In this document: positions 6,067-25,874 of the stretch, piece by piece
Layout: each line of letters opens with the position of its first letter
Position numbering within the stretch: position 1 is the first letter of the stretch
Assembly: GCA_013361335.1 (NCBI GenBank)
Contig: JABFYH010000179.1
Location: 1-56,080, forward strand
Length of the DNA: 56,080 nt
Source: Gemmatimonadaceae bacterium
GTDB lineage: Bacteria; Gemmatimonadota; Gemmatimonadetes; Gemmatimonadales; Gemmatimonadaceae
Reading direction: 5' to 3'
The notes under the pieces: generated by a model
Told to the model about the DNA's origin: nothing
Seen by the model: the letters and a program-made list of their open reading frames with translations, nothing else
Databases searched by the model: none
Position numbers and translations under genes: made by a program

Positions 6067-6134
6067 CCGCAGGCCGTTCCTCTTCGGCCCGCCGCTTGCT
6101 CCGGGGGTGAGCGTCATCATCCCGGACTGGTCCG

Positions 6135-7019: not shown

Positions 7020-7179
7020 CGGCTGCACGACATGCCGCACGCCGCATCGGCGGACTCGGCGGCGGCCGGCGGTCCCACGCCGCAGCACGGGGTCGGCGCC
7101 TCCATGCCGGAGCTCGGCGAGTCCTAGATTCCGCCCCACGAATGATTACCTTCCTGCTCCCGCTACTGGAGCCCAGGGC

Positions 7180-7629
7180 ATGACCATCCGCAGGCAGCGT
7201 CGGGAAGACCCGGCGTACCTCACCGCGATGCGCGAAGCGAAGGAGCTGTTCGACGCCGAGATGGCGAAGAACAGCATGAAGGGGCGCGGCCGTCCCAAGA
7301 CCGTCGTCGCGGCAGCGCCCGCGGCGGCCGAGGTCGAGATCGACCATGAGGTGGTCGACGAGATCGCCGACCTCTCCGCCGACGACACCGACGCGGCCGA
7401 CGCGGCTGACACTGCCGGGGAAGCGGACATCGAGGACGTGGACATCGAAGAGGTGGCGCTGCCCCGCGCCACGAAGCGTGCGGCAAAGACGGCCGGCGCG
7501 TCGCGCGGCAACGGAAAGGCCGCGAAGTCGGCGGCCAAGGGGTCGGCCAAGGTACCCGTGCGTGCGGTGAAGAAGCCGGCGCCAAAAAAGAAGGCCGCCT
7601 CCGCAAAGAAGACGGCCCGCAAGCGCTAG
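7180..7629 (+). CDS. Small protein with histone-H1-like Lys/Ala tail
   Basis: A 149-residue hypothetical protein in three parts: a charged N-terminal helix (REDPAYLTAMREAKELF), an acidic middle rich in Asp/Ala/Glu, and a C-terminal tail rich in Lys, Ala and Pro (KKPAPKKKAASAKK). Such tails occur in nucleoid-binding, histone-H1-like proteins and in some ribosome-associated proteins, so nucleic-acid binding is plausible. No catalytic motif is present. Its stop lies 10 bp from the stop of the convergent Ig-like gene, inside a perfect inverted repeat. It is a real gene by codon use and its ATG start; the function is unknown. Confidence 0.7.
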   Translation: MTIRRQRREDPAYLTAMREAKELFDAEMAKNSMKGRGRPKTVVAAAPAAAEVEIDHEVVDEIADLSADDTDAADAADTAGEADIEDVDIEEVALPRATKRAAKTAGASRGNGKAAKSAAKGSAKVPVRAVKKPAPKKKAASAKKTARKR

Positions 7630-7648
7630 TCGATCCGGGCTAGCGCTT
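7621..7648. terminator. Shared convergent hairpin made of both stop regions
   Basis: AAGCGCTAG (7621-7629) pairs perfectly with CTAGCGCTT (7640-7648) across a 10-base loop. Both converging genes end Lys-Arg-stop with the same codons, so each arm is the 3' end of one coding sequence. There is no T-run, so termination efficiency is uncertain. Confidence 0.55.
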
Positions 7649-9598
7649 CTCTTTCCTGATCGGAATGGAGCGTGACGACGTCGCGCGCGGTGCGGGCTCG
7701 TGCGCCGCGCCGACCTCGATCGTGTAGGTCCCCCTCACGTCCGTCGACCGCACCGCGCCGCTGAGCATCTGCTCGCCGGCCTTGGTGCCAGGGGTCCACG
7801 TCAACGCGGCGCGGCCGCGCGTGTCACTCACGGCCCGTGCTGGCGTCACGGATCCGGACTTGGTGGTGAAGACCACCGTGACGTCCGGGACGGGATTGCC
7901 GTAGACGTCGGTGACCAGCGCATACAGGTGGTGAGTGCGCTCCTTCGTCCGCCCGGACGCCGGCGCATCGTCGAAGGAGAGGTTGGCCGGGGAGGCGGGC
8001 GTGGTGAGCGCCCCGACCTTGAGCAGGGTCTTCACGCCATCCACGCGCACCCCGAGGGTATGCTCCCCGGCCGAGCGTCCCATCGTCCATCGGACTCTGG
8101 CGATGCCCTGGGCGTCGGTCGTGATCGCGCTGTCCGGCACCGAGCCGCTCGACGGCGCGAGCTGCACCGACGCATTGGCCACACCGCTGCCGTTCGCGTC
8201 GACGACGCGGATCACGATGGGCTTCGCGAGCGCCGCGCCGGCCGGGCCGCGCTGTGCATCGCCACTCGTCACGACGACGCCCGTCGGCGCACCGGCGACG
8301 GCGACGGCGCTGATCGTCACCGGCGGAATGCTCCGCGCGCCCGAGCCGACGCCCACCTGCGCACGCAGCTTCTGCAGGCCCGTCTTCCTGGCGAGCGTCC
8401 AGTGTGCGCGCACCACGCCGAGGGAGTCCGTGCGAGCGGCCAGCGCCTCGACGGCGCCGCCGGCGTCCACCGTCCAGCGCACCGGAATGTCGGAGAGCGC
8501 ACGCCCCGTCGAGTCGGTGACGCGCACCGCCACCGAGTCGGGCAGGACCTCGCCGGCGGGTCCGGTGAGCTGCTCCACCAGCGCCGTCACCCGCGTGTTC
8601 GCGGCGACCGGATCGGACTCCGCCACGATCGCGAGCGCGCTGTCCACGGTCGCCACGCTCGCGAGCAGGGTCTGACGTCCCGGGTAGTCGCCGAGCGTCC
8701 AGGTCGCGCGCACGCGGCCATCGGCATCGGTCACCGCGGTGCGCGGATCCACCGAGCCCTGGCCGTCCGCCACCTTGAAGGTCACCGTCTGACCGGCCGC
8801 GGGGCTGCCGCGGCGGCTCGTCGCCCGCACCACCACCGGCTGCGCGAGGGTGTTCCCCGCGAGGGCTCGCTGATCGCTGCCAGCGACGAGCGTCAACGTC
8901 GACGCCGTTCTGATCACCGAGACGCCGGTACGACCGGCGGTGCCGTCGACCTTGGCGGTCACGTACGTCCGGCCGGCGGTGTTGGCCGTGAGCACGCCGC
9001 CCTTGTCCAGCGCGGCGACGGCGCTGTCGTCCACCGCCCACTCCACGCCGCGTCCGTTCACGAGATGACCGCGCGAATCATAGGCGAGAGCGTTCAGCTT
9101 CATCTCGCTTCCTTCCGGCACGACCACGAAGCTGTCGGACGGCGCACTGGCCACCGTCACGCTGGCGACACGCTGCCGCACGAGGATCTTCGCGTGCGCG
9201 ACCAGCTCGCCGACGACGACGCTCACCGTCGTCGTGCCGGGGCCACGCGCGATCACGGAGCCGTCGGTCCGAACTACCGCGACGTTCGAGTCGCCGGTGG
9301 TCCACGTCGGGCGCGCGCCGACCAGAATGCTGCCGTTGCGGTCCGCGATCGTCGCGGCGTAGTGGGCGGTATCGCCGATCGCGAACGCGGTGTCCATCGA
9401 CGGGCGGAGGCCGACCCACGCCGCGCCGAGATTCCCGATGGAGTTGTGTGATTCGGCCTTGCCGATCACCCCGTACGAGTAGAGCGCGGACACGACCGTG
9501 ACCAGCGCGGCACCGGTCGAGGCGGCGAGGGCGACGATCTTCCCGACCTTGTGGAAGACGGAGGCTTTCTGGATGACGGAAGAGGAGATCTGGCCCAT
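7640..9598 (-). CDS. Membrane-anchored Ig-like (BIG) repeat protein
   Basis: A 652-residue protein beginning with about 20 cytoplasmic residues and one hydrophobic helix (near 22-45), without a cleavage site, so it is probably an N-in anchored protein. After the helix it consists of serial bacterial Ig-like domains. An early BIG_2-like unit (DSNVAVVRTDGSVIARGPGT) is followed by about four Big_1/invasin-type units, each ending in a motif such as GRVRATWTLG, GVVRAHWTL, GIARVRWTMG or GRAALTWTPG. Such domains act as spacers or adhesion modules on surfaces. No catalytic domain is visible. The ATG at 9596-9598 is the only sensible start. It stands alone, divergent from the LysE gene and convergent with the basic-tail protein. 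Confidence 0.75.
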   Translation of the reverse strand: MGQISSSVIQKASVFHKVGKIVALAASTGAALVTVVSALYSYGVIGKAESHNSIGNLGAAWVGLRPSMDTAFAIGDTAHYAATIADRNGSILVGARPTWTTGDSNVAVVRTDGSVIARGPGTTTVSVVVGELVAHAKILVRQRVASVTVASAPSDSFVVVPEGSEMKLNALAYDSRGHLVNGRGVEWAVDDSAVAALDKGGVLTANTAGRTYVTAKVDGTAGRTGVSVIRTASTLTLVAGSDQRALAGNTLAQPVVVRATSRRGSPAAGQTVTFKVADGQGSVDPRTAVTDADGRVRATWTLGDYPGRQTLLASVATVDSALAIVAESDPVAANTRVTALVEQLTGPAGEVLPDSVAVRVTDSTGRALSDIPVRWTVDAGGAVEALAARTDSLGVVRAHWTLARKTGLQKLRAQVGVGSGARSIPPVTISAVAVAGAPTGVVVTSGDAQRGPAGAALAKPIVIRVVDANGSGVANASVQLAPSSGSVPDSAITTDAQGIARVRWTMGRSAGEHTLGVRVDGVKTLLKVGALTTPASPANLSFDDAPASGRTKERTHHLYALVTDVYGNPVPDVTVVFTTKSGSVTPARAVSDTRGRAALTWTPGTKAGEQMLSGAVRSTDVRGTYTIEVGAAHEPAPRATSSRSIPIRKEKR

Positions 9599-9735
9599 GC
9601 TCCTATTGGACGGGGGCCGGACGAGGTCGGTAACAGCGCACGGCGCTATTTTCCCGAGCCTGCCGATCCGCCATGCCGACTAACCCGCTGTTTCGTCGGT
9701 CAACTGGACTCTCCCCTGCATTTCAGGCAGACTTG

Positions 9736-10374
9736 ATGATGCCGACCATGCACTCGCTCGCCCTCTTTCTCGCGGCCGGCCTCGCCCTCAACCTCACACC
9801 CGGCCCCGACATGCTGTACGTCGCCGCGCGCGGCGCCAGCGAGGGACGCTCGGCCGGCGTCGTTTCCGCGCTCGGGATCGGCACGGGGACGCTGGTGCAC
9901 GTGGCGCTCGTCGCGGCCGGCCTCGCGGCCCTGCTCGCGGCCGTGCCGGTGGCATATCTCGCGCTCCGGCTCGTCGGCGCGGCGTATCTCATCTCCCTCG
10001 GCGTGCGTGCGCTGCGCGGCGGACCGACGGCTTCCACCGGCGCGCTCGCTCCTGCTCCGCTGGGCGTCATCTTCCGCCAAGGGGTGATCACGAACGTTCT
10101 CAATCCCAAGGTCGCGCTGTTCTTCCTCGCCTTCCTGCCACAGTTCGTCGACCCGTCGCGCGGCAATGCCGCGCTGCAGGTCGTCGCCCTCGGTCTGTTG
10201 TTCGACGTGAGCGGAACGCTGGTCAATCTCGCCGTTGCGCTGGCGAGCAGTCGCGTCGCCGGTGGGCTCCGCCGGAGCGAGGCGCCCGGCGGTGCGGGTC
10301 GCATGATCCAGCGCGTGACCGGCGGCCTGTTCATCGCGCTCGGTGCGCGGCTGGCTTATGGGGCGCGACCGTGA
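9736..10374 (+). CDS. LysE/RhtB-family amino-acid exporter
   Basis: A 212-residue inner-membrane transporter with about six hydrophobic helices. The N-terminal signature is LNLTPGPDMLYV, followed by GIGTGTLVHV and the mid motif GVITNVLNPKVALFFLAFLPQFV, all diagnostic of the LysE/RhtB superfamily that exports amino acids. The exact substrate cannot be told from sequence. Of several nearby ATG codons the MMPT start at 9736 was chosen; MHSL at 9748 is also possible and no strong ribosome-binding site decides. The stop overlaps the next gene by four bases (GTGA), so it leads a short operon with the acetyltransferase and lipoprotein. Confidence 0.88.
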   Translation: MMPTMHSLALFLAAGLALNLTPGPDMLYVAARGASEGRSAGVVSALGIGTGTLVHVALVAAGLAALLAAVPVAYLALRLVGAAYLISLGVRALRGGPTASTGALAPAPLGVIFRQGVITNVLNPKVALFFLAFLPQFVDPSRGNAALQVVALGLLFDVSGTLVNLAVALASSRVAGGLRRSEAPGGAGRMIQRVTGGLFIALGARLAYGARP

Positions 10375-10823
10375 GCGACGACGAGTTCACGGTGACGAGC
10401 GATCCGGCGGCGGTGGACGTCGACGCCGTGCATGCGTATCTGCGCACCAGCTACTGGGCCGAGGACGTGCCGCGCGACGTCGTGGTGCGCGCGATCGCCA
10501 ACTCCATCCCGTTCAGCGTGCTGCACGGCCAGCGGCAGGTCGCGTTCGCCCGCGTGATCACCGACCGCGCGACCTTCGCCTACCTGTCCGACGTCTACGT
10601 GCTCGAGGCGTATCGTGGGAGGGGATTGGCGCGTCGATTGATGGATGCGGTGATGGGCCATCCGGATCTGCAGGGGCTTCGCCGGTTCAGTCTCACCACG
10701 CGCGACGCGGCGGGGCTGTATCGCCGGTACGGCTTCACGCCGCTCGCGACGCCGGCACGCCACATGGAGATCTTTCGTCCAGGGATGTACCGGCAGGATC
10801 TCGGCTCCAGGACGGGTACATGA
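10371..10823 (+). CDS. GNAT-family N-acetyltransferase
   Basis: A 150-residue cytoplasmic acyltransferase beginning with a GTG that overlaps the LysE stop. The acetyl-CoA loop is YRGRGLARRLM, preceded by the conserved strand YLSDVYVLEAYRG, and the C-terminal GLYRRYGFTPL is the usual GNAT beta6-alpha4 signature. Such proteins acetylate amino groups of small molecules or proteins using acetyl-CoA. Coupling to a LysE exporter suggests the substrate could be the exported compound, for example an amino acid; that is inference. It overlaps the next gene by four bases (ATGA). Confidence 0.87.
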   Translation: MSDDEFTVTSDPAAVDVDAVHAYLRTSYWAEDVPRDVVVRAIANSIPFSVLHGQRQVAFARVITDRATFAYLSDVYVLEAYRGRGLARRLMDAVMGHPDLQGLRRFSLTTRDAAGLYRRYGFTPLATPARHMEIFRPGMYRQDLGSRTGT

Positions 10824-11602
10824 AAGAGGTCGTCGTCGCCGCGATCGCCGCGGCGGTCGTGGTCGCCTGCGCGGACGCACCACGCGGGCCGTCGCTCAAG
10901 GAGCGCATGGCCGCGCAGGCGGCAGCCGTGCCTCCGGTGCCGGTGGCCTACCAGCCGGCGGTGGCGATGTGCACCGACACGTCGGAGGCGGCGGCCATGC
11001 GCTGTGCCGACGGGGTCGCGATGCGCGCGGGCGACACGATCATTCTTCGCTTGAGCACCGTCGGCGCGGCCAAGCGTGTGGACAACCCGCAGGAGGGCGA
11101 TGGATATCGGCGCTACTACTACGCCGGCCGCTTCGGCGGCGACAACGGCACGCCGGCCTTCCACATCCTCGACGTCCGGAACTACGAGGGCGGTGCGATC
11201 GAGCTGATCAACGCGGCGACGGGCGATTCGCTGCTGCTCCGCGGCGTGCCGATTCTCTCTCCCGACGGCGCGCGCTTCGCCGCGGTCGAGGAGCCGGATG
11301 CCTGCGAGCTCGCGTCGCAGCTCGAGGTCTGGCGCGTGACCGGCGACCAGCCGATCCGTGAGCTCAGTCTCCAGCCTTTCGACTGCGACGCGAACACCGG
11401 ATGGGGACCGTCGGATGTGAAGTGGCGGACGCGCGACACGATCGCGCTTGTGCGCAACCGACTGCCCCGCGACTCGACGCGACGCGCGAATGGCGAGCGC
11501 GATGCGTCACCGGCGTTGCTCGTGCGGAGTGCCGGCACATGGGTGCTGGACACCGCATCCAGCGCCGGCCAGCAACGGAAGGTTCGCGCGGACAGTCTCT
11601 GA
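10820..11602 (+). CDS. Hypothetical lipoprotein
   Basis: A 260-residue exported lipoprotein. It starts with an ATG overlapping the GNAT stop and a hydrophobic stretch ending AVVVACADA (lipobox VVAC, Cys17). The mature part contains four further Cys residues (VAMCTD, MRCADG, PDACEL and PFDCDA) that could form disulfides, and a segment with an FHILDVRNYEGG strand. WD40- or beta-propeller-like readings are possible (LINAATGDSLLLRGVPILSPDG) but too short to claim. It sits inside the exporter-acetyltransferase-methyltransferase string; no functional link is evident. Confidence 0.72.
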   Translation: MKEVVVAAIAAAVVVACADAPRGPSLKERMAAQAAAVPPVPVAYQPAVAMCTDTSEAAAMRCADGVAMRAGDTIILRLSTVGAAKRVDNPQEGDGYRRYYYAGRFGGDNGTPAFHILDVRNYEGGAIELINAATGDSLLLRGVPILSPDGARFAAVEEPDACELASQLEVWRVTGDQPIRELSLQPFDCDANTGWGPSDVKWRTRDTIALVRNRLPRDSTRRANGERDASPALLVRSAGTWVLDTASSAGQQRKVRADSL

Positions 11603-11619
11603 TCCCTGGCCACCCCTCG

Positions 11620-12471
11620 ATGCCGATCGAGAACGTTTCCGACACCGCGCGCTGGGTCGCGGTCTATCGCGCCATGGAGACGGCGCGCCCCGACGCGCTG
11701 TTCCGCGACCCGTTCGCCGAGCGCCTCGCCGGTGAGCGAGGGCGGGCGATCGTCGGCGAGATGAAGCAGGGCCATCGGATGGCGTGGGCGATGATCGTCC
11801 GTACGGCCGTGCTCGACGAGCTGATCCTCGACCGCGTCCGAAACGGTGGGGTGGATACGGTAATCAACCTCGCCGCCGGCCTCGATGCGCGCGCCTGGCG
11901 CCTGCCCCTCCCGCCGACCCTGCAGTGGTTCGACGTGGACCTGCCGGCGATGACCGCGTACAAGGCGGAGGCGATGCGGGGCGAGCGGCCGGCGTGCCGC
12001 TACGAAGCCATCGCCGCGGATCTCACGAGCGAGACGACGCGGACCGAGCTGCTGCGTCGGCTGAGTGGTGTGGCGCGCACCGCGCTCGTCGTGAGCGAAG
12101 GGCTGCTCATCTATCTCGAGCAGACGCAGGTGGAGTCGCTCGCCCGCGCGCTGCATGCGCAGCCGAGCATCCGATGGTGGATCGCCGACGTGGCGAGCCC
12201 GCGGCTGCTGGAGTGGATGAACCGGTCCTGGGGGAAGAACGTCGCGGCGGGCAATGCCCCTTTCCGCTTCGCGCCGGCCGACACCGCGGGCTTCTTCGGC
12301 GCCCTCGGCTGGCGCGAGCTCGAGTTCCGCTCGGCGATGGAGGACGCGCGTCGCCTGCGCCGCGAGATGCGCGGCATGTGGTTCTGGCGGCTGGTGAGCC
12401 GTTTCACGAGAGGCGTGCGCCGTGAGGAGTTCCGGCGCATGTCCGGCATCGTGGTGCTCGAGCGGAGCTAG
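11620..12471 (+). CDS. Class I SAM-dependent methyltransferase, LCMT/TIGR00027-like
   Basis: A 283-residue methyltransferase. The N-terminal VSDTARWVAVYRAMET and DALFRDPFAERLAGERG, then VINLAAGLDARAWRLPL as the SAM-binding motif, and WFDVDLPAMTAYKAE, are characteristic of the leucine-carboxyl-methyltransferase-like family found in actinobacteria and related phyla. VVSEGLLIYLE is the conserved post-SAM strand. The methyl acceptor is unknown; carboxyl groups of small molecules are typical guesses. The ATG at 11620 is 17 bases after the preceding stop. It is followed by a strong inverted repeat, so it probably ends the operon. Confidence 0.85.
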   Translation: MPIENVSDTARWVAVYRAMETARPDALFRDPFAERLAGERGRAIVGEMKQGHRMAWAMIVRTAVLDELILDRVRNGGVDTVINLAAGLDARAWRLPLPPTLQWFDVDLPAMTAYKAEAMRGERPACRYEAIAADLTSETTRTELLRRLSGVARTALVVSEGLLIYLEQTQVESLARALHAQPSIRWWIADVASPRLLEWMNRSWGKNVAAGNAPFRFAPADTAGFFGALGWRELEFRSAMEDARRLRREMRGMWFWRLVSRFTRGVRREEFRRMSGIVVLERS

Positions 12472-12480
12472 CACGTGACC

Positions 12481-12504
12481 CGCGCGCCACGGGTGTGGCG
12501 CGCG
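12481..12504. terminator. Convergent hairpin terminator
   Basis: CGCGCGCCAC (12481-12490) pairs perfectly with GTGGCGCGCG (12495-12504), with loop GGGT. It lies just after the methyltransferase stop and just beyond the stop of the converging 72-residue gene. No T-run is present. Confidence 0.55.
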
Positions 12505-12517
12505 TACACACGGATGC

Positions 12518-12736
12518 TCAGCGCTGTGCGCGCGCTTCTGCCTCGGCGGCGATCTCAGCCACCGTCTTCTCGCTGACCTCGTTCGGTGTGGTCGCGCGCA
12601 CGCGCGCGGCCTCCTGACGGTTGGCTTCGCTGTCGGCGTGCACCTGCTCCTGGATCTGCGCGTTGCGCGGATCGCGCGCCGCGGCCTCCGGCTGCGGATG
12701 ACGGACCGTCTCGTCTCGCTGATCGCGATTTTCCAT
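12518..12736 (-). CDS. Small charged hypothetical protein
   Basis: A 72-residue protein made almost entirely of charged and small residues (QIQEQVHADSEANRQEAARV, EIAAEAEARAQR), predicted to be helical and soluble or disordered. The ATG at 12734-12736 is preceded by TGGAGC at a proper distance. Composition recalls small stress-induced hydrophilic proteins, but no family was recognised. It diverges from the SRPBCC gene about 140 bp away and might share regulation with it. Confidence 0.6.
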   Translation of the reverse strand: MENRDQRDETVRHPQPEAAARDPRNAQIQEQVHADSEANRQEAARVRATTPNEVSEKTVAEIAAEAEARAQR

Positions 12737-12877
12737 GGTGTCGCTCCAGGTGGATGAATGGAGTTGCTCGCAGTGCACGTGTAACGGGCAACAAGCATTC
12801 CCTCGCGCGGCGAACGAGGCGTGCCGGTACGCGGTATGCGCGCTTCCGTCGTCCGGATTTCTCTCTCGGAGGAAATG

Positions 12878-13951
12878 ATGGAGACGGCAACACAGCAGGG
12901 CGATGGCGTTGGCTCCGCGGGTGGCGAGCGCTACCTGACAGGCACCGACAAGCCCATCCGCGCGCAGGGCGAAGGGGGACGCGTCACGGGCGACGGCGTC
13001 GAGCGCGAGGTCGACCTTCCGAGGGCACGGCGGGCGGACAAGCTCGCGCAGGGGTTGGGGTGGTTCAGCATCGGCCTCGGCACGGCGCAGATTCTCGCGC
13101 CACGCGCGATGAGCCGACTCGTCGGCGTGAAGAACGCCGACCACAACACGGGACTCATGCGCGCGCTCGGCGTTCGCGAGATCGCCGCCGGCATCGGCCT
13201 GCTCGCCGACCCGAAGCCCACCGGGTTCGCCGTCGCGCGCGTGGCAGGCGATGCGATGGATCTCGCCCTGCTCGTACGCACGCTCGCCACGCCCGAGAAC
13301 GACAAGGGCCGCGCGCTGTTCGCTACGGCGGCGGTGGTCGGCGTGGGGCTGCTCGACGTGCTGGCCAGCGAGGAGCTGTCGACGACGGCGCCGAAGGTCA
13401 CGCATCCCGACCGTTCGGGTGAGGCGCTCTCGGTGAAGCGGAGCGTGACGGTGAGCCGTCCGGTCGAGGAGGTCTATGCGTTCTGGAAGGACTTCGAGAA
13501 CCTGCCGCGGTTCATGAAGCACCTCGACCGCGTTGAGAACACCGGCGAGAGCACCTCGCGGTGGTCCGCCGGCGCGGCGCAGGGCGAGAGCGTGCAGTGG
13601 GAGGTGCAGCTCGTCGAGAGTCAGCCCAACCGCCTGCTCTCCTGGAAGACGATCGGCATCTCCGACATCACCGCGCACGGTCGAGTGGAGTTCGCGCCGG
13701 CACCGGGGGGGCGTGGTACCGAGGTACGCGCGAGCCTGTCGTACCAGGTCCCCGGCGGCGCGGTCGGCAAGCGGATCGCGATGATCTTCCGTGACGTGCC
13801 CGGAGTGAAGATCGAGAACGAGCTCAACGTCTTCAAGCAGATCATGGAGACCGGCGAGGAAGTCCGCTCCGACGCCTCCATCCACAAGGGTCCACATCCC
13901 GCGCAGCCACCGTCGGATCGCGTGAACTTCCAGGACCAGACCACGGCGTAA
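12878..13951 (+). CDS. SRPBCC (cyclase/dehydrase-like) membrane-associated protein
   Basis: A 357-residue protein. The N-terminal part (about 60-170) is a helical, partly hydrophobic region with [17 protein letters not shown] and [12 protein letters not shown], as in COG5637-type proteins. The C-terminal part (about 190-330) is a polyketide-cyclase/START-like SRPBCC domain, with [18 protein letters not shown] and [13 protein letters not shown] at its start. The family binds hydrophobic ligands; the ligand here is unknown. The start is chosen because GGAGGA directly precedes the ATG pair at 12875 and 12878. A negatively charged tail follows. This architecture is frequent in stress-responsive loci next to zinc alcohol dehydrogenases, as here. 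Confidence 0.8.
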
Positions 13952-13957
13952 TTTCGC

Positions 13958-13980
13958 GGCGGCGCCGATGGCGCGCCGCC
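13958..13980 (+). terminator. GC hairpin between SRPBCC and dehydrogenase genes
   Basis: GGCGGCGC (13958-13965) pairs with GCGCCGCC (13973-13980), loop of 7. It lies right after the SRPBCC stop and about 30 bp before the dehydrogenase start. It could be a terminator or an mRNA-processing hairpin; there is no T-run. Confidence 0.4.
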
Positions 13981-14009
13981 TTCGACGGCGACTCAGGGAG
14001 GATCGTTCA

Positions 14010-15182
14010 ATGAAGGCAACCTGCTGGATGGGCAAGAAGAAGATGGAGGTGCGGGACGTCCCGGATCCGCAGATCTTCAATCAACGCGACTGCATCGTGA
14101 AGATCACGTCGACGGCGATCTGCGGCTCCGACCTGCACCTCTACAACGCGTTCATCCCGTTCATGGAGCCCGGCGACATCATGGGGCACGAGTTCATGGG
14201 CGAGGTGGTGGATGTCGGCCGCAACGTGAAGAACCTCAAGGTCGGGGATCGGGTGGTCGTCCCCTTCCCGATCGCCTGCGGCAACTGCAACGCCTGCAAG
14301 GCGGAGCTCTACTCCTGCTGCGAGAACTCCAACCCCAACCGCGCGCTCCCCGAGAAGCTGATGGGGCACTCGCCGGCGGGGATCTTCGGGTACTCGCACC
14401 TCACCGGCGGGTACGCGGGCGGGCAGGCGGAGTATGCGCGGGTGCCCTTCGCCGACGTGGGGCCGATCAAGATTCCCAACGGGCTTACCGACGACCAGGT
14501 GCTGTTCCTGTCCGACATCCTGCCGACGGGGTGGATGGGCGCGGACATGGCGAGCATCAAGCCGGGTGACGTCGTGGCAGTGTGGGGATGCGGTCCGGTG
14601 GGGCAGTTCGCCATCGCCAGCGCCTATCTCATGGGCGCGGAGCGGGTGTACGCGATCGACCGGTTCCCGTACCGGCTCCAGATGGCGCGCGAGAAGTGCG
14701 GCGCCGTCACGATCAACTACGAGGAGGTGGAGAGCGTCGTCGAGACGCTCACCGAGCTCACCGGCGGTCGCGGCCCCGACGCGTGCATCGACGCGGTTGG
14801 GCTCGAGTCGCACAGCCATGGCATCGGGCACGTCATGGATCGCACCAAGCAGGCGCTCAAGATGACGACCGATCGCATCGCCGCGGTGCGTGAGGCGATC
14901 ATGGCATGCAGGAACGGCGGGACGGTCTCCATCATCGGCGTCTACGGCGGCTTCGTCGACAAGTTCCCCCTCGGCTCCGTGATGAACCGGTCGCTCACCA
15001 TTCGTGCCGGCCAGTGTCACGTGCAGAAATACATGCCCATGCTGCTGGAGAAGATCGAGAACGGCGAGATTGATCCAAGCTTCGTCATCACGCACCGCCT
15101 GCCCCTCGCCGAGGCGGCCAAGGGGTACGAGATCTTCACCAACAAGGTGGACAACTGCGAGAAGGTGGTGCTGAAGGTCTGA
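14010..15182 (+). CDS. Zinc-dependent alcohol/formaldehyde dehydrogenase family protein
   Basis: A 390-residue medium-chain dehydrogenase. Catalytic zinc ligands are Cys38 (ICGSDLH) and His60-Glu61 (MGHEFMGEV); the structural zinc site is [15 protein letters not shown] (Cys90, 93, 96 and 103/104). The Rossmann motif is [12 protein letters not shown]. The length and the extended region after the zinc site ([15 protein letters not shown]) fit the group related to glutathione-independent formaldehyde dehydrogenase, which oxidises or dismutates aldehydes with NAD. The ATG at 14010 follows GGGAGGA. An upstream hairpin and a strong downstream terminator suggest that it can be transcribed alone or with the SRPBCC gene. 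Confidence 0.88.
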
Positions 15183-15199
15183 GCAGGGTGATTCGCCGG

Positions 15200-15233
15200 A
15201 AGGGCCGGTCCTCGTTGGGGAGGCCGGCCCTTT
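15200..15233 (+). terminator. Intrinsic-type terminator after the zinc dehydrogenase
   Basis: AAGGGCCGG (15200-15208) pairs perfectly with CCGGCCCTT (15224-15232), followed by TTCG. It lies 18 bp after the stop codon. The loop TCCTCGTTGGGGAGG can fold further by itself (CCTC with GAGG). Confidence 0.7.
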
Positions 15234-15266
15234 CGCCACCAGGCCGGTCGGGCGCAGCTTTCACGA

Positions 15267-16496
15267 ATGACCAGCCGCCACCTCCATCTGCTCGCTCTCG
15301 CCGCGTTCCTGATCGCACCGACGCTTGGCGCCCAGGACAGCTCGATCGTCATCCGCGCGGGCCGTGTCCTCGATGGCCGCGGCGGCACCCTCGCCACGAC
15401 GACCATCGTCGTGCGGGGCGGCACCATCGCCACCGTCTCACCTGCATCGTCGTCAGGCCCGGCGACATATGACCTCTCCCGGTACACCGTGCTCCCGGGC
15501 CTCATCGACGTGCACGAGCACGTCGGCTGGCACTTCAATGCCGCGGGGCGCTTCCACACGAGCGGCGACGGCGAAACGCTCGTCGACGAGACCCTCGCGG
15601 GAGCAGGGAACGCCTACACCGTCCTGATGGCGGGGTGGACGACGATCGCGAGCCCCGGGTCGGCGAGCGACGCGCCACTCCGCGACGCCATCGCCCGGGG
15701 CGTGCTGCCCGGCCCGCGCATCCTCACGTCGCTCGAGCCGCTCAGCGACCCGCGCCTCAGTCCGGATTCCATCCGTGCGCTCGTTCGGCTGCGCAAGGCG
15801 CAGGGTGCGGACTTCATCAAGATCTTCGCGTCGGCCAGCATCCGCGACGGCGGGAAGCAGACCTGGAGCGACGCGCAGCTGGCCGCCGGTTGCGGTGAGG
15901 CCACGCGGCTCGGCCTGCACACGATGGTGCACGCCCACAGCGCAGAGGCGATGCGCGCGGCGACGCTCGCCGGCTGTACGCAGATCGAGCACGGCGTCTT
16001 CGCGACGCAGGAGGTGCTCGATCTCATGGCGCAACGCGGCACCTGGTTCGATCCCCAGTGCAGCCTCGTGTTCCGGAACTATCTGGACAACCGGGCGCGC
16101 TACGACGGGATCGGCAACTACAATGCGGTCGGCTTCGCGTCCATGGAGAAGGCGCTGCCGATCGCGGCGAACGTCGTCCGTGTCGCGTCGCGGACCACGG
16201 GCCTCAAGCTCGCGTATGGCACCGACGCGGTCGCGGGCGCCCATGGTCGGAACGCGGAGGACCTCACCTGCCGCGTGCGATCGGGCGGTCAGCCGCCCAT
16301 GGACGCGATCATGTCGGCCACCTCGCGAAACGCGGAGGCGATGGGGCTGGGGAACCGTATCGGCACCGTGGCGTCGGGGATGCAGGCCGATCTCATCGCC
16401 GTCGACGGCGATCCGAGCGCCGACATCACGGCGCTCGGCCGCGTGGTCTTCGTGATGAAGGGTGGAATCGTGTATCTGAGTCCTCGTGCACCGTAG
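15267..16496 (+). CDS. Secreted amidohydrolase, Xaa-Pro-dipeptidase/imidazolonepropionase-like
   Basis: A 409-residue metal-dependent hydrolase with a signal peptide ending LIAPTLGAQ, so it is periplasmic or secreted. Metal-site motifs in order: HEH (in GLIDVHEHVGWH, normally HxH), Lys in DFIKIFAS (the usually carboxylated bridging Lys), HAH (MVHAHSAEA), His in QIEHGVF and Asp in YGTDAVAG. The C-terminal composite-domain strand GMQADLIAVDGDP is also typical. Members of this set hydrolyse Xaa-Pro or acyl-amino-acid dipeptides and related amides; the true substrate is unknown. A paralogue lies at 34444-35784. Start: the first ATG beginning the signal peptide. Confidence 0.88.
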   Translation: MTSRHLHLLALAAFLIAPTLGAQDSSIVIRAGRVLDGRGGTLATTTIVVRGGTIATVSPASSSGPATYDLSRYTVLPGLIDVHEHVGWHFNAAGRFHTSGDGETLVDETLAGAGNAYTVLMAGWTTIASPGSASDAPLRDAIARGVLPGPRILTSLEPLSDPRLSPDSIRALVRLRKAQGADFIKIFASASIRDGGKQTWSDAQLAAGCGEATRLGLHTMVHAHSAEAMRAATLAGCTQIEHGVFATQEVLDLMAQRGTWFDPQCSLVFRNYLDNRARYDGIGNYNAVGFASMEKALPIAANVVRVASRTTGLKLAYGTDAVAGAHGRNAEDLTCRVRSGGQPPMDAIMSATSRNAEAMGLGNRIGTVASGMQADLIAVDGDPSADITALGRVVFVMKGGIVYLSPRAP

Positions 16497-17111: not shown

Positions 17112-18053
17112 ATGGCGCGCGCACTCTCTCTTCCCCGCACCGACGGTGACGTCGAGCTCACCCTCGGCGGACGGCGGCTGAAGCTCACCAACCTCGGCAA
17201 GGCCTTCTGGACCTCGCGCGACGACACCATCACCAAGCGCGACCTGCTCCAGTACTACGCCGACGTCTCTACCTGGCTCGTGCCGCACCTCCGCGAGCGG
17301 GCCATGGTCATGAAGCGCTACCCCAACGGCGCCGAGGGCAAGTGCTTCTTCATGAAGCGCGTGCCGCAGCCGCACCCGGACTGGCTCGACACCTGTTCCA
17401 TCGAGCACGACTCGGGGAACGTCATCGACTTCCCGGTGGTGAACGACCTCGCCTCGCTGCTCTGGGTCGTCAACCTCGGCTGCATCGACCTCAACCAGTG
17501 GTACGCACGCTGTGACGACGTCGATCGCCCCGACTACCTGCACTTCGATCTCGATCCGGTGAAGAAGGGGGGCGTCACCTTCCGGAAGGTGCTCGACGCC
17601 GCCCTCGTCGTGCGTGACGCGCTCGCCACGCTCGGCATGAAGCCGCTCGTGAAGACCACCGGCTCCGCGGGCGCACACCTCTACGTCCCCATCGTGCGTG
17701 GCCCGACGCAGAAAGAGGTGTGGACCTTCGCCAAGGCGCTCGCGCAGGCGCTCGCCGCGCAGCACCCGAAGCTGCTCACCGCCGAGTATCGCATCGCCGA
17801 CCGGCCGGCCGGACGCGTGCTCGTGGACTACAACCAGAATGCGTGGGGTCGCACCCTCGCGTCGGTATACTCGCCACGGCCGAGGCCGCGCGCCTCCGTG
17901 TCGACGCCGCTGACCTGGGCCGAGGTGGAGAAGGGGGTGAAGATCGAGGACTTCCGGATCGACAACGTCCCGGCCCGCCTGCGAAAGATCGGCGATCTCT
18001 GGAAGCCGCTCCTGGCGAAGAGCGGCCGCTTCAAGCTGGAGAAGGTGCTGTGA
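17112..18053 (+). CDS. ligD: LigD polymerase-domain protein (NHEJ)
   Basis: A 313-residue archaeo-eukaryotic primase-like polymerase, corresponding to the stand-alone polymerase domain of LigD that fills and extends ends during Ku-dependent non-homologous end joining. The signature segments are LTNLGKAFW at the N-terminus, YHFDLDP-type HFDLDPVKKGG with the metal-binding Asp residues, and TTGSAGAHLYVPI for the nucleotide-binding His/Ser region; the late DYNQNAWGRT is also conserved. No nuclease (PE) domain and no ligase domain are fused. The next gene, a LigD-type ligase, overlaps by four bases. No Ku gene is present in the window. Confidence 0.9.
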   Translation: MARALSLPRTDGDVELTLGGRRLKLTNLGKAFWTSRDDTITKRDLLQYYADVSTWLVPHLRERAMVMKRYPNGAEGKCFFMKRVPQPHPDWLDTCSIEHDSGNVIDFPVVNDLASLLWVVNLGCIDLNQWYARCDDVDRPDYLHFDLDPVKKGGVTFRKVLDAALVVRDALATLGMKPLVKTTGSAGAHLYVPIVRGPTQKEVWTFAKALAQALAAQHPKLLTAEYRIADRPAGRVLVDYNQNAWGRTLASVYSPRPRPRASVSTPLTWAEVEKGVKIEDFRIDNVPARLRKIGDLWKPLLAKSGRFKLEKVL

Positions 18054-19090
18054 GCCTCCCCATCCCGCGCACCTACGCGCCCATGGAGGCGAAGCTCGTC
18101 GACGAGCTGCCCACCGGCGGCGAGTGGCAGTACGAGCCCAAGTGGGACGGCTTCCGCTGCCTCGCCTTCCGCGACGGCGACAGGATCGACCTGATGTCCA
18201 AGGCGGGAAAGCCCCTCGCCCGGTACTTCCCCGAGCTGCTCGAGACCCTCGGCCACGTCAAAGCGAAGCGCTTCGTGCTGGACGGGGAGATCGTCATCCC
18301 GCATGACGGCGCCCTGTCGTTCGACGAGCTGCTCCTTCGCATCCATCCGGCGAAGAGCCGGATCGCCAAGCTCTCGGTCGAGAGTCCGGCATCGCTCATC
18401 GTGTTCGATCTGCTCGTCGACGCGAAGGGAGAATCTCTGGTTGCACAGCCGTTGACGGAACGCCGGCCGGCGCTCGAGGAGTTCGTGGCGGCGAATGTGC
18501 CGAAGGGCGCCGCGATCCGGCTGTCGCCGGCGACGACCCGGATGGTCACCGTGAAGAAGTGGTTCCGCTCCGTCGGCGGTGGGCTCGATGGCGTGATCGC
18601 GAAGCGGCTCGACGTCGCCTACCTGGGCGGCACCCGCGACGGGATGCAGAAGATGAAGAACATGCGCACCGCCGAATGCGTCGTCGGCGGCTTCCGCTAC
18701 GCGTCGAAGGGGCACGTCGTCGGCTCGCTGCTGCTCGGACTGTACGACGACGGCGGGCTGCTGCACCATGTCGGGTTCACGTCGAACATCCCGAACGCCG
18801 AGAAGCCGGCGATCACGAAGCGGCTGGAGAAGCTGAAGCAGGCACCCGGCTTCACGGGGCAGGCGCCCGGCGGCCCGAGCCGCTGGAGCACCGAGCGCTC
18901 CAGCCAGTGGGAACCGCTCGCCCCCGAGCTCGTGCTCGAGGTGCAGTACGATCACTTCTCCGGTGGCCGATTCCGTCATGGGACGTCGTTTCTGCGCTGG
19001 CGACCGGACAAGCCGCCCCGCCGCTGCACCATCGCGCAGGTGGAGCAGGAGGGCCGCTCCGCTCTCACGCTGCTCCCGAAGCGCGCGTAG
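18050..19090 (+). CDS. ATP-dependent DNA ligase, LigD type
   Basis: A 346-residue nucleotidyltransferase that seals DNA nicks. The adenylated Lys is Lys31 in YEPKWDGFR (motif I KxDG), followed by RFVLDGEIVI (motif III area), GLDGVIAKR (motif IV) and FHGT-type C-terminal FRHGTSFLRWR in the OB domain. The start is a GTG overlapping the polymerase-gene stop (GTGA), which implies coupled translation of the two halves of LigD. With the polymerase it would act with Ku at double-strand breaks; Ku must be elsewhere in the genome. The function is firm; the choice between LigC and LigD ligase type is moderate. Confidence 0.9.
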   Translation: MSLPIPRTYAPMEAKLVDELPTGGEWQYEPKWDGFRCLAFRDGDRIDLMSKAGKPLARYFPELLETLGHVKAKRFVLDGEIVIPHDGALSFDELLLRIHPAKSRIAKLSVESPASLIVFDLLVDAKGESLVAQPLTERRPALEEFVAANVPKGAAIRLSPATTRMVTVKKWFRSVGGGLDGVIAKRLDVAYLGGTRDGMQKMKNMRTAECVVGGFRYASKGHVVGSLLLGLYDDGGLLHHVGFTSNIPNAEKPAITKRLEKLKQAPGFTGQAPGGPSRWSTERSSQWEPLAPELVLEVQYDHFSGGRFRHGTSFLRWRPDKPPRRCTIAQVEQEGRSALTLLPKRA

Positions 19091-22298: not shown

Positions 22299-22847
22299 AT
22301 GCGCCGACACTTTCTGATTCCCGCCGCGTGCGTCGCGATGGGCGCCTGCACCCACGCGGCGCCGCCCGCCGATGCGCCGTCTCCCACACCGCAACCGCAG
22401 CCGGCGCCGGCGACCGCTTCGGCACCAGCACCAGCACCGGCACCGGCACCGGCACCAGCACCGGCACCAGCGCCGGCACCGGCACCAGCGCCGGCACCGG
22501 CACCAGCGCCGGTGATCCAGCCTGCTGGCACCGTTCGGGAGTATCGCGGTGCGTACACCCGCGGCTTCGAGGCGAGCTGGTTCGTGCCCTGTGACGCCCC
22601 GAGGGACGACGCCCTCTGGTGGGTCACCCTCACCGAGGACGCGCGGCTTCAGCGCGACAGCCTGCTCAAGGCCCTGACCCAGCGGGCCACCGGAGCGGTC
22701 GCCGTCCGGTGGCGCGGCACGATCAGCGAACGGATGCCCGCCGGTCAGATGGGTCGCGGCACGCGCTACATGCTCGTGCACCAGGTGCTCGAGGTGCGGC
22801 CGCTGCCCGCGGAAGGCGCGTGTGGCGTGGTGTCCCGCACCTCGTAG
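22299..22847 (+). CDS. Lipoprotein with Ala-Pro repeat linker
   Basis: A 182-residue lipoprotein. The ATG at 22299 follows GAGGAG, and the signal ends VAMGACTHA with the lipidated Cys at residue 17. Next comes a Pro/Ala-rich linker with fifteen perfect Ala-Pro dipeptides, a rigid spacer that could cross the periplasm as in TonB. A C-terminal globular part of about 100 residues follows (FEASWFVPCDAP, AVAVRWRGTIS, RYMLVHQVLEV). No domain name can be given. It converges with the S24 gene, with only nine bases between the stops. Confidence 0.75.
   Translation: MRRHFLIPAACVAMGACTHAAPPADAPSPTPQPQPAPATASAPAPAPAPAPAPAPAPAPAPAPAPAPAPAPVIQPAGTVREYRGAYTRGFEASWFVPCDAPRDDALWWVTLTEDARLQRDSLLKALTQRATGAVAVRWRGTISERMPAGQMGRGTRYMLVHQVLEVRPLPAEGACGVVSRTS
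22422..22511. repeat. Hexanucleotide tandem repeat, 15 units
   Basis: Fifteen consecutive GC[A/G]CC[A/G] units encode Ala-Pro dipeptides. Third-base variants (GCACCA, GCACCG, GCGCCG) are mixed; a GCGCCG-GCACCG-GCACCA pattern recurs, which suggests growth by slippage of 18-bp blocks. In-frame length variation is expected. Confidence 0.85.
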
Positions 22848-22856
22848 CGCCGTCGT

Positions 22857-23549
22857 CTAGCTGCGACTGAAGCGCGCGATCACCGTGCCCAGCACGGTGG
22901 ATGGATCGCGGCGCACCGTGACCGACGGATAAGCGTCGTTGAACGAGGCCAGCTCGACCTGTCTCGCGTTCAACGACGCCACGCGCTTCACGACGAACCC
23001 CGTTTCCGGTCGCCGCGCCACGACGAGATCGTCCACCATCGGGACCGCATCGAGCTGGACCAGGATGACGTCGCGCGGCGCGAGCACCGGTTGCATGCTG
23101 TCGCCATCCACACGCATGGCGACGTAGCGGGCCGACGGGAGATCGGCCGGCAGCTCGACCCAGGTGTCGCAGGGCTCGTCCCAGAGCTCTCGCCCCGATC
23201 CGGCGGCGGCGGAGAGCTCGAGCATCACGGCGCATCCGGCGTCCAGCGCCAGCCCCAGCGACTGCGCGACCGTGGCCGCCACCGGCGCAACCCGACTGCG
23301 TAGCAGCTGTCGCGGGAGCCGTCGCTCTGCGCGCCGCTCGGCGAGCCGCGCCGACTCGCGTCGCGCGAATGCGTCGGCGTCGCGCTCGTCGCGTTCGCGC
23401 TCGGCGGTGGATGCGCCAGCTCGCAGGTCCTGCGCGATCCAGGCGAGCGTCGCCTCGCTCTGGTGCACGGCGTCGGTGTCCCTCCGCTCCAGCTCAGCGC
23501 CCACCAGGCGCATCAGCTCGTCGACGGCGTCGTCGTCAAACTGTGTCAT
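22857..23549 (-). CDS. S24/LexA-like autoprotease domain protein without a DNA-binding domain
   Basis: A 230-residue protein. The C-terminal half (about 110-228) is a LexA/UmuD-type S24 peptidase: RVDGDSM carries the Ser nucleophile (Ser151) and FVVKRV the general-base Lys (Lys188), and a possible Ala-Gly self-cleavage bond lies at AAAGSG (116-117). The N-terminal half has no helix-turn-helix. It is a charged, probably helical region (DELMRLVGAELERR, then a Glu/Arg/Ala-rich stretch to about 80) and a VAATVAQSLGLAL helix. The ATG at 23549 follows GGAGGAAGGG and overlaps the end of the upstream sigma-like gene by 14 bases. It could be a cleavable co-regulator or anti-sigma; that is inference. 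An S24 role in SOS is established only for LexA and UmuD. Confidence 0.8.
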   Translation of the reverse strand: MTQFDDDAVDELMRLVGAELERRDTDAVHQSEATLAWIAQDLRAGASTAERERDERDADAFARRESARLAERRAERRLPRQLLRSRVAPVAATVAQSLGLALDAGCAVMLELSAAAGSGRELWDEPCDTWVELPADLPSARYVAMRVDGDSMQPVLAPRDVILVQLDAVPMVDDLVVARRPETGFVVKRVASLNARQVELASFNDAYPSVTVRRDPSTVLGTVIARFSRS

Positions 23550-24303
23550 CCCTTCCTCCGGCGCGCTCAGCGCGCGGTTCGAGACAGTGCCCTGCCCGGC
23601 GGAGAAAGCGCTCCACCTCGCGTTGTTCCTCCGCATCCAGCGACGTCACGTGCTGCAGCACCAGCTTCCGGAATCGCTCGCGCAGGCGGTGTACGCGCAC
23701 GCGGGCCGCTGCGTACGAGATGCCGAGCTGCGCGGCGAGCTCCCGCATCGGTACGTGATGACTCACCCCCGCCATCAGCGACTGGTCGTCCTCGCGCAGC
23801 GCCTGCGCCGACCACTTCGCGAGCTTCGTTACCGCGGTGTCGAGCGGCGTTGTCTCCTCCGCGCTCGCCGACGACGACCTGCGCAGGTCGTACTCCGAGT
23901 GACACTCGGCCACGACCCGCTGCTCGGTGCCTGGAACCGTCGTGGCAGCGCGCTCGGCGAGCAGGCGCGTCCGGGTGCGGGCGCGGTGATGGTTGCGAGC
24001 GCGATTGCGCACTGCGGCGACGAGATAGCGCCCGACGTCCCGAGGTGGTACCGCCGCGTCCTGCACGTGCAGCACGAAATCGCCGAGCAGCGTGGTGACC
24101 AGGTCGGCGCGTTCGTGGGGCTCGACGCCGAGGCGCCGCGCCTGATCGCGCAGTAGTGGCGCGTAGAAGAGAAAGAGTGCGCGCAGCGCGGACGGCTCGC
24201 CCGCCTTCAGCGCGGCGACGAAGGTCGCCGGCGTGGCGTACGGGGGTGGAACGAGCGGCGTCCGTCCCACACCGTCATCCCGTGTCTGATCGCTCGTCGC
24301 CAC
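23536..24303 (-). CDS. Sigma-70-family (ECF-like) factor paired with the S24 protein
   Basis: About 255 residues. A region-2-like segment (SALRALFLFYAPLLRDQARRLG, DLVTTLLGDFVLHV, YLVAAVRNRARNH) and a region-4-like helix-turn-helix near the end (MRELAAQLGISYAAARVRVHRLRERFRKL) support a sigma-like transcription factor. The linker between them is long, and a 40-residue tail follows region 4, longer than in ordinary ECF factors. The start is uncertain: a GTG at 24303 after a G-rich site is preferred, with alternatives at 24312 or 24357. The gene overlaps the S24 gene, so the two proteins are probably made in fixed proportion. A non-sigma DNA-binding regulator is a weaker alternative. Confidence 0.72.
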   Translation of the reverse strand: MATSDQTRDDGVGRTPLVPPPYATPATFVAALKAGEPSALRALFLFYAPLLRDQARRLGVEPHERADLVTTLLGDFVLHVQDAAVPPRDVGRYLVAAVRNRARNHHRARTRTRLLAERAATTVPGTEQRVVAECHSEYDLRRSSSASAEETTPLDTAVTKLAKWSAQALREDDQSLMAGVSHHVPMRELAAQLGISYAAARVRVHRLRERFRKLVLQHVTSLDAEEQREVERFLRRAGHCLEPRAERAGGRDDTV

Positions 24304-24364
24304 GCTGCCCACCCCCCGCGCTCTGTCGATGGATGCTTCCCTCCGACAGATGCACACCGACCCG

Positions 24365-24943
24365 TTACACGCGGCTGCGCAGCCAGGCGCGCAGCCGGGT
24401 CTCCAGGCGGCGGATGCGCCTGGGGGACAAGGGGACTGCTCCGATGGCCCGCCCGCGCAGGAGCTCGGCGCGGCGCCGCGAGAATCCGCGTCGTTCAGCG
24501 AGGGCGATGAGCTCGAGCAGATCGTGGGTGGCGTTCGCGAGCGCCTGGAGGGGAGGATTGTCGGCGAGCGTGCCGGGAGTGATGGTCAGCCGACGACGGG
24601 CCCGGTCGGCCTTGATCATCTCCTCGCGACTCGGGCGCCGGAGGGAAGCGGTGAAGCCGAGGTTCGCCAGGGCGCGGCCGATGGCCGAGGTCTCGGCGTT
24701 CTCGAGGCAGGCGACCGCGTTGATATCCCCATCGTCGTCCCGCTCGGCGGCCCACCCGGTGGCGGCGGGGTGAGGGTCGTCGTCGTCGCGGAAGGCGAGC
24801 GCGCGAAAGACGGTCTCACCGTCGTGTCGGGAGACGAGCTCGGTGACGAGGCGGCCCTTGGGGTAGCGCTCGTAGAAGAGCTGGATCCGGTCGGCGACGG
24901 GGGCGTAGAGGGCCGGATCGAACTGGGCGTCGGTCTTGGGCAT
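24365..24943 (-). CDS. Rad52/DdrA-like single-strand annealing protein (putative)
   Basis: A 192-residue protein. An N-terminal VADRIQLFYERYPKGRLVTEL, then TGWAAERD, and the diagnostic CLENAETSAIGRALANLGF resemble the phage and bacterial DdrA/Sak/Rad52-like annealing proteins, whose core carries a conserved ETxxxGRAL-type helix. The last 80 residues are Arg-rich helices (RRRAELLRGR, RLETRLRAWLR) that could bind nucleic acid. Such proteins bind single-stranded DNA, protect ends and anneal complementary strands. GGAG precedes the ATG. It lies between the sigma/S24 pair and a second sigma factor, all on the minus strand. Family placement is from motif memory and is moderate; a phage origin is possible. 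Confidence 0.6.
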   Translation of the reverse strand: MPKTDAQFDPALYAPVADRIQLFYERYPKGRLVTELVSRHDGETVFRALAFRDDDDPHPAATGWAAERDDDGDINAVACLENAETSAIGRALANLGFTASLRRPSREEMIKADRARRRLTITPGTLADNPPLQALANATHDLLELIALAERRGFSRRRAELLRGRAIGAVPLSPRRIRRLETRLRAWLRSRV

Positions 24944-24966: not shown

Positions 24967-24993
24967 TCTATACCCGAATAAAGACCGAAGCAA
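24967..24993 (-). promoter_or_regulatory. Possible promoter of the annealing-protein gene
   Basis: On the minus strand TTGCTT (24988-24993) lies 15 bp from TATAGA (24967-24972), about 23 bp before the ATG. The same TATAGAC box with a 15-bp spacer occurs at the copper promoter (34347-34373). The spacing is short, so it may need an activator or an alternative sigma factor. Confidence 0.4.
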
Positions 24994-25032: not shown

Positions 25033-25569
25033 CTATCTCGCGAGGAGCGCCGGCAGCCGCTCGCGCAGCGCTTTCGTGGCGCGCGCGACGTGCACTTCGA
25101 CCGTCCGCGGCGAGATGCCGAGCATCTCGGCGATCGCCGCGGTGGAGAGCTGGTGACGCAGGCGAAGCGTCGCTACCTCCCGCTGCCGTGGCGGCATCGA
25201 CGCGAGCACCTGCTCGATCGCACGGATGATGTCGTCGGCCTCGAGCTTCCGCTCCCCCTCGGGCGGGAGCGCGGGCTCCTCTGCCGCGACGCCGCCGGGA
25301 AACGCGCGCACACGGGCGCGCGCCTCGGTGTCCTCATGTCGGATGTAGTTGAGCGCCCACGAGCGCGTCGCGACATACAGGTAGGCGCGCACGCCTGGAC
25401 CTGTCTCGACCGTTTCCCACCCGCGCCACAGACGAAAGAACACATCCTGGACGAGATCCTCCGCCGCCTCCCGCGAGCGCACGAACCTACGCGCATATCG
25501 GCGCAGCGGCTCCGCGTGCGTCTCGAACAGCTGCCCGAATGCCGAGGAGTCCGCGCCATGGTCTGACAT
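25033..25569 (-). CDS. ECF-type RNA polymerase sigma factor
   Basis: A 178-residue sigma-70-family protein. Region 2 is ETHAEPLRRYARRFV, AAEDLVQDVFFRLW and TRSWALNYIRH. Region 4 is LASMPPRQREVATLRLRHQ, with TAAIAEMLGISPRTVEVHVARATKAL as the helix-turn-helix. The length and order are those of classical ECF factors. No anti-sigma gene follows, and the next gene downstream on the same strand is the annealing-protein gene after a 90-bp gap. The ATG has no ribosome-binding site and lies only a few bases after a good promoter, so a leaderless mRNA is likely. The nearby XRE protein is a candidate repressor. Confidence 0.9.
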   Translation of the reverse strand: MSDHGADSSAFGQLFETHAEPLRRYARRFVRSREAAEDLVQDVFFRLWRGWETVETGPGVRAYLYVATRSWALNYIRHEDTEARARVRAFPGGVAAEEPALPPEGERKLEADDIIRAIEQVLASMPPRQREVATLRLRHQLSTAAIAEMLGISPRTVEVHVARATKALRERLPALLAR

Positions 25570-25643: not shown

Positions 25644-25874
25644 TCAGCGTCGAGACCGGCGTTTCAGTCGATGGTCGTCTTCGACTCGCGCCAGTACGTC
25701 CGACGCTCGCGTCCCCATCGCTCGACACAGCCGGATCAGCATGTCGACCGTGGGCGACTGGAGATTGCGCTCGAGAATGCTCACATAGGTCCGGTCGATC
25801 CCGGCCTTGTCAGCAAGTCGCTCCTGAGTCAATCCGGAGTCGAGGCGTCGTTGCCGTAGCTCATCTCCAAGCAT
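25644..25874 (-). CDS. Small XRE-family transcriptional regulator
   Basis: A 76-residue helix-turn-helix protein consisting of little more than the DNA-binding domain: LRQRRLDSGLTQERLADKAGID, then TYVSILERNLQSPTVDMLIRLCRAM, the Cro/C1-type five-helix fold, with a short basic tail. Such stand-alone proteins usually dimerise on palindromic operators and often regulate restriction-modification or toxin genes, or themselves. Here the only close partners are the ECF sigma gene immediately downstream on the same strand and an upstream broken gene. A pair of inverted 17-bp motifs flanks the gene and may be its operators. Confidence 0.88.
   Translation of the reverse strand: MLGDELRQRRLDSGLTQERLADKAGIDRTYVSILERNLQSPTVDMLIRLCRAMGTRASDVLARVEDDHRLKRRSRR

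Follow-up and report, generated by a model that had tools for sequence, protein, structure and literature searches.

An SOS-box operon of Gemmatimonadaceae pairing an ECF-type sigma factor with an S24 autoprotease-like protein, a putative self-cleaving anti-sigma factor

A gene for an S24 autoprotease-like protein starts inside the end of a sigma-like gene in the window (the whole 56,080-nt stretch of Gemmatimonadaceae DNA that was analysed), which raises the question of whether the S24 protein could hold a sigma factor inactive and release it by cleaving itself, as the initial annotation had suggested. From the reading of ORFs, three genes lie in a row on the minus strand in the order ORF3, sigma and S24. 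ORF3 (24365..24943, 192 aa, core motif ENTETSAIGRALANLGF) is the best-conserved gene of the operon, and it is followed by the gene for the ECF-type sigma factor (23536..24303, about 255 aa), which starts either with the GTG at 24303 or with a GTG close by, and by the S24 gene (22857..23549, 230 aa), whose product is proposed here to be a self-cleaving anti-sigma factor. The described start of S24 within the end of the sigma-70-like gene was found again as a 14-nt overlap (23536-23549), with the S24 ATG at 23549 and the end of the sigma-like ORF at 23536, both on the minus strand. A strong ribosome-binding site, GGAGGAAGGG (23550..23559, minus strand), is located directly 5' of this ATG.

The Pfam domain Peptidase_S24 (PF00717) was matched on residues 113-224 of the S24 protein (E=4e-14, 52.7 bits, cut-off 23.3), and by Pfam and fold match the protein belongs to peptidase family S24. 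No substitution was found at A115-A116-G117, G149, S151, M152 or K188 among 25 S24 homologs, so that the Ser151/Lys188 dyad and the Ala-Gly pair at 116-117 named initially hold across the family, with numbering that is exact from the ATG. On the minus strand, the codons of Ala116-Gly117, the predicted self-cleavage site, lie at 23199..23204, that of the catalytic Ser151 at 23097..23099 and that of the catalytic Lys188 at 22986..22988. The spacings of 34 residues from Gly to Ser and 37 from Ser to Lys are those of E. coli LexA, in which the corresponding positions are G85, S119 and K156. In an AlphaFold2 model built on the 25 sequences (mean pLDDT 84), a low-confidence, flexible stretch falls exactly at 116-118, and the C-terminal half was matched by Foldseek to the autoprotease domains of LexA, UmuD and CI, with alignments of about 90-150 columns for the 230-residue query.

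The N-terminal helical region (residues 1-77; 23319..23549, minus strand) is the proposed sigma-binding part. Helices were modelled at 6-23, 32-45 and 48-77, the last being 30 residues long, followed by a beta-alpha-beta part and the LexA-like C-terminal domain, with only moderate confidence for the first 40 residues. These three helices, together with the lack of a Pfam match, agree with the earlier description of a charged helical region in place of the helix-turn-helix. Even at E<=10, no credible Pfam match was obtained when the first 110 residues were searched for six homologs, and neither a helix-turn-helix nor any other DNA-binding fold, the finding that had been named as a refutation of the idea, was recognised in the model, the fold search or Pfam; judging from the model, an unusual DNA-binding fold is unlikely. 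Pfam also returned no known anti-sigma domain for this region, and the fold search no anti-sigma match. A near-invariant Trp is the single exception in the otherwise poorly conserved N-terminus. Among family-level matches, the S24 protein showed an NCBIfam match to the UmuD family, and its best PHROG match was a transcriptional repressor family, via the C-terminal domain only. The possibility that it is a degenerate LexA was rejected, since it scored 17.8 bits against the TIGR00498 (LexA) cut-off of 110.95 and two other genes in the genome code for canonical LexA.

The sigma-70-like gene was recognised as a divergent ECF-type gene. It was matched by the NCBIfam sigma70-ECF superfamily at E=1.5e-8, under the curated cut-off, and by Pfam Sigma70_ECF at 21.2 bits (cut-off 21.1), and a profile of 23 homologs matched the solved structures of the ECF sigma factors CnrH and SigH in the PDB. 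Regions 2 and 4 are recognisable and region 3 is absent, as defines ECF factors, indicating by sequence comparison that the product is a genuine but sequence-divergent ECF-type sigma factor. No conserved cleavage site was noticed within it.

To follow the pairing in relatives, a profile search was performed over 179 genomes of Gemmatimonadaceae, mostly metagenome assemblies. About 28 true members of the S24 family were found in roughly 25 of them, in many genera (E<=6e-21), well apart from LexA-like matches (best near 1e-11, most near 1e-8). In a motif scan of 85,000 species genomes all matching records were from Gemmatimonadota except for a single one from a bacterium that carries no lineage name, and no homologs were found in IMG/VR; on these searches the family is patchy in distribution and was found only in Gemmatimonadota. 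The source genome (G000) carries a second sigma-S24 copy on contig C143 (72% identical), and the pair of Gemmatirosa kalamazoonensis is on a 1.04 Mb replicon, a megaplasmid (NZ_CP007130.1). The check proposed in the initial annotation, for the same gene order in other genomes, gave a clear answer: sigma is directly 5' of S24 at all loci with a readable region, with an overlap of 4-17 nt in nearly all, so that the S24 gene adjoins an ECF sigma gene as the genes of class I anti-sigma factors do. A chance overlap of two unrelated genes was rejected on account of this conserved pairing. The exceptions are a disrupted sigma frame at L031 and a disrupted S24 frame at L037; a broken or shortened sigma was seen at L031:8220-8985 and L035:10498-11157 and an in-frame stop or frameshift of S24 at L037:9832-10371, which may represent decay or assembly errors.

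Mean identity was 52% for ORF3, 51% for the S24 C-terminus, 32% for sigma and 29% for the S24 N-terminus. Distances of the S24 N-terminus correlated with those of sigma at 0.83, compared with 0.70 for the C-terminus, a weak test in which relatedness was not controlled. This suggests joint divergence of sigma and the S24 N-terminus, and shared ancestry also raises such correlations.

Three features beyond the initial annotation were found: an SOS operator, a pair of candidate sigma promoters and RHS neighbours. The operator TTCGGTCTTTATTCGG (24974..24989, minus strand) is a direct repeat TTCGG-N6-TTCGG with period 11; it lies in a promoter that resembles those of sigma70, 46 nt ahead of ORF3. 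The repeat precedes the operon in 24/24 readable loci. It was present in all 20 regions 5' of ORF3 (0.01 expected from shuffles), where it sits between promoter-like -35 and -10 elements, and it precedes sigma instead in the three loci in which ORF3 is absent (L039, L040 and L081). In the source genome, 37 sites matched the pattern with <=2 mismatches, as against 6 for a reversed control. Sites with 0-1 mismatch precede lexA, which carries two boxes, recA, uvrA, uvrB and gyrB, and also genes for two radical SAM proteins, one a TIGR03916-like repair protein and the other Rv2578c-like. The candidate SOS boxes are at C43:24387-24426, C4:15414-15454, C183:12857, C141:2593, C149:18875, C226:18520, C189:58064 and C149:28752 (loci L089-L091, L094, L096-L098 and L100). 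At the C143 copy, the operator is common to the operon and a divergent imuA-like gene, beyond which lie imuB-like and dnaE-like genes; matches in this polymerase region were strong for PHP and DNA_pol3_alpha, and weak, below cut-off, for RecA-like and IMS_C.

From these positions, TTCGG-N6-TTCGG is almost certainly the LexA operator of the source organism. Since it is also found at lexA, recA, uvrA and uvrB, the ORF3-sigma-S24 operon would belong to the SOS regulon, and its SOS control is regarded as very likely. No description of an SOS box or LexA motif of Gemmatimonadetes was found in the open-access literature, and the operator gives Gemmatimonadaceae a testable SOS box. The candidate regulon also includes a topoisomerase IB-looking gene with no NCBIfam match. 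Two genes of this genome score above the LexA family cut-off (C43:24505-25104 and C59:11461-12060), and boxes were seen at the first only.

ORF3 is located 5' of sigma in 20 loci and is absent from three that keep the operator, sigma and S24. It matched phrog_11717 (7e-26), and its relatives are unannotated phage proteins, including ones in Bacillus and Lactobacillus phages (KU160496.1, NC_025415.1); those of Lactobacillus phages are near exonuclease, SSB, NinB and RusA genes. The ORF3 model has an alpha-beta-beta-beta-alpha core, for which the fold search pointed to double-stranded-RNA-binding-like folds without any match reaching significance (best E 0.02), and there was no sequence match in the PDB. 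A role in DNA recombination may perhaps be considered, and the topology and phage neighbours offer an annealing protein as a lead. A prophage origin of the operon was rejected, as phage relatives were found for ORF3 only.

A candidate sigma-dependent promoter element, TGTAACGGGTCGGTGTGCATCT (24348..24369, minus strand), was observed in the ORF3-sigma gap. Its TGTAAC motif occurs in 8 of 20 such gaps (0.07 expected) and within 150 nt 3' of S24 in 5 of 29 loci (0.16 expected), and about half of the loci have a recognisable element. The TAA of TGTAAC doubles as the ORF3 stop codon in several loci, and in some a variant -35-like element, TGTCAC, is found. A longer exact pattern matched only two C143 sites, and a looser one, TGTAAC-N6-GKGTGC-N-Y-CT, was used for the genome count; it has exactly three perfect sites in the genome, all at the two sigma-S24 loci (5' of the window sigma, 5' of the C143 sigma and 3' of the C143 S24). 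In a descriptive comparison of five loci chosen for having both copies, 10-16 of the variable 16 nt were identical within a locus, compared with a mean of 7.4 between loci, and the true pairing was the best of 120. The TGTAAC-type motif would be recognised by the operon's own sigma. A copy of the promoter with one mismatch (C47:6563-6584, L122) is found before a gene for a small predicted membrane protein, possibly a further sigma target.

Genes for giant, secreted RHS-repeat proteins were observed 3' of S24 in nine loci, about a third of all (L030, L032, L033, L070, L071, L076, L082 (partial), L084 and L085), and a gene whose small product looks secreted and has a DKPVVV-type motif was observed there in L030, L032, L071, L072, L076 and L084. 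In the source genome (assembly 84% complete), RHS repeats were found only on C143, immediately 3' of the second sigma-S24 pair; no RHS gene is present at the window copy, where the next gene converges on S24. Unrelated genes follow S24 in the remaining loci. Control of the downstream genes by sigma is considered probable. At L084, a second short sigma-like ORF (4608-5129) is found after S24, followed by an ORF for a small protein that looks secreted and by three RHS-like ORFs (5720-16345).

A sigma switch gains in plausibility from the SOS operator, the conserved upstream gene, the candidate sigma promoter and the RHS genes, and the following mechanism is proposed. LexA would repress ORF3-sigma-S24 at the TTCGG-N6-TTCGG operator, and DNA damage, by destroying LexA, would allow the operon to be transcribed. 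Made in step with sigma by coupled translation, the S24 protein would act as an anti-sigma factor and keep sigma inactive via its helical N-terminal domain. RecA filaments, still present, would then stimulate its self-cleavage at Ala116-Gly117 by Ser151/Lys188, which would split the sigma-binding part off the C-terminal core and free sigma; sigma would then amplify its own operon from the TGTAAC-type promoters and also turn on the adjacent secreted-protein and RHS-repeat genes where these are present. What the DNA shows directly is the operon, its operator and the occurrence of that operator at SOS genes, the catalytic residues with the motif for cleavage, the promoter-like sites in pairs and the neighbouring RHS genes; it is inferred that LexA binds the operator, that S24 binds and inhibits sigma, and that RecA stimulates a cleavage by which sigma is released. 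As a counterpoint, an operon that is repressed by LexA and also carries the gene for its own inhibitor would require this additional, putative cleavage step. An anti-sigma function of S24 is moderately likely and a RecA-triggered release of sigma has about an even chance. For an SOS-induced ECF sigma with a self-cleaving S24 anti-sigma factor as a whole, the balance tips slightly in favour; the stricter form, in which RecA-triggered self-cleavage frees sigma directly and LexA derepression and sigma release form a two-step switch driving secreted RHS proteins, is held tentatively, at just short of even.

Several known systems can be compared with this scheme. The class I anti-sigma factors of ECF sigma factors (RseA, ChrR and RsiW) are a precedent for the gene order and the helical N-terminal domain, as they too are encoded next to an ECF sigma gene and combine N-terminal helices with a C-terminal module for sensing or processing (PMC7406223). 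By this analogy, a sigma gene upstream of and overlapping S24 is the classical ECF sigma/anti-sigma arrangement. Unlike them, S24 has no recognisable anti-sigma domain and its release module would be the S24 domain, not a membrane or zinc module; the class I domain is a three-helix bundle plus a fourth helix, and the S24 model has three N-terminal helices of moderate confidence with no Pfam match. For the LexA-sigma-feedback part, SigN of Bacillus subtilis pBS32 is a precedent, with a LexA-repressed promoter and its own sigma-dependent promoter, so that DNA damage is followed by positive feedback (PMC6751061); the host and target genes are different, and no S24 partner was seen in its description. 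The ECF41 promoter, TGTCACA-n16-CGTC, likewise has a similar -35-like element before sigma and an adjacent target gene (PMC3426412); the present sigma has an S24 partner, and the likeness is one of promoter motif, with sigma not shown to be ECF41.

LexA and phage CI share with the S24 protein the C-terminal S24 domain, the Ser/Lys dyad, the Ala-Gly site, its equal spacing and the fold matches, but no helix-turn-helix was found here, the helical N-terminus is of another kind and the S24 gene overlaps that of an ECF sigma factor. DNA-binding repressors account for most of the long S24 proteins, so that S24 might be a repressor with an unrecognised DNA-binding N-terminus, acting like LexA or CI on the operon or on sigma-dependent promoters and not binding sigma. 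This is unlikely: the charged, helical N-terminus and the best PHROG match, through the C-terminal domain only, would suit it, but the model lacks a helix-turn-helix, Pfam gave nothing at E<=10, the poor conservation (29% against 51% for the C-terminus) would be unusual for a DNA reader, and a canonical LexA already accounts for the upstream operator. UmuD, a subunit of DNA polymerase V, is likewise an S24 protein under SOS control in which no DNA-binding domain is recognised, and a similar accessory of error-prone repair, SOS-induced and self-cleaved and acting on a DNA polymerase or ORF3 in place of sigma, would fit the SOS operator, the UmuD-family match and the operator shared at C143 with the divergent imuA-like, imuB-like and dnaE-like genes. 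Polymerase genes, however, were seen beside the C143 copy only, whereas sigma, not umuC, is the partner gene in all readable loci; the 115-residue N-terminal region far exceeds the short UmuD arm, and the RHS and TGTAAC arrangement is left unexplained, making this explanation quite improbable.

The genetic coupling would be the same if S24 were a positive partner or processing protease that cleaves, stabilises or co-activates sigma, and S24 domains and signal peptidases do have a common fold. The conserved Ala-Gly at LexA spacing inside S24 points to self-cleavage instead, and no conserved target site was noticed in sigma, so that such a role is given little credence. That the module belongs to a cassette which was recently mobile or came from a phage and has been retained for the sake of ORF3, with sigma and S24 as passengers, has very little probability: it agrees with the patchy occurrence (about 28 members in roughly 25/179 family genomes), the phage relatives of ORF3 and the megaplasmid member, but three loci without ORF3 retain the operator, sigma and S24, the catalytic residues are invariant and IMG/VR contained no relative.

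Membrane proteolysis, partner switching and conformational change are the routes by which the known ECF anti-sigma factors are removed. If the proposed anti-sigma switch is true, a LexA-type self-destroying anti-sigma factor links RecA directly to a sigma factor, S24 self-cleavage has a third use beside repressors and UmuD, and DNA damage is tied, in these soil bacteria of a phylum that has been little studied, to the secretion-type RHS proteins. A search of the open-access literature found no paper on an S24 peptidase and an ECF sigma factor together, which is not proof of novelty.

Around the operon, a lipoprotein-like ORF with a long Ala-Pro repeat (window 22299-22847) is convergent to the S24 gene. 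Upstream of ORF3 and outside the conserved module, genes for a canonical ECF sigma and a small XRE-type regulator were observed (window 25033-25569 and 25644-25874), and two ORFs at 17112-19090 resemble, by eye, the polymerase and ligase halves of LigD-type end-joining proteins.
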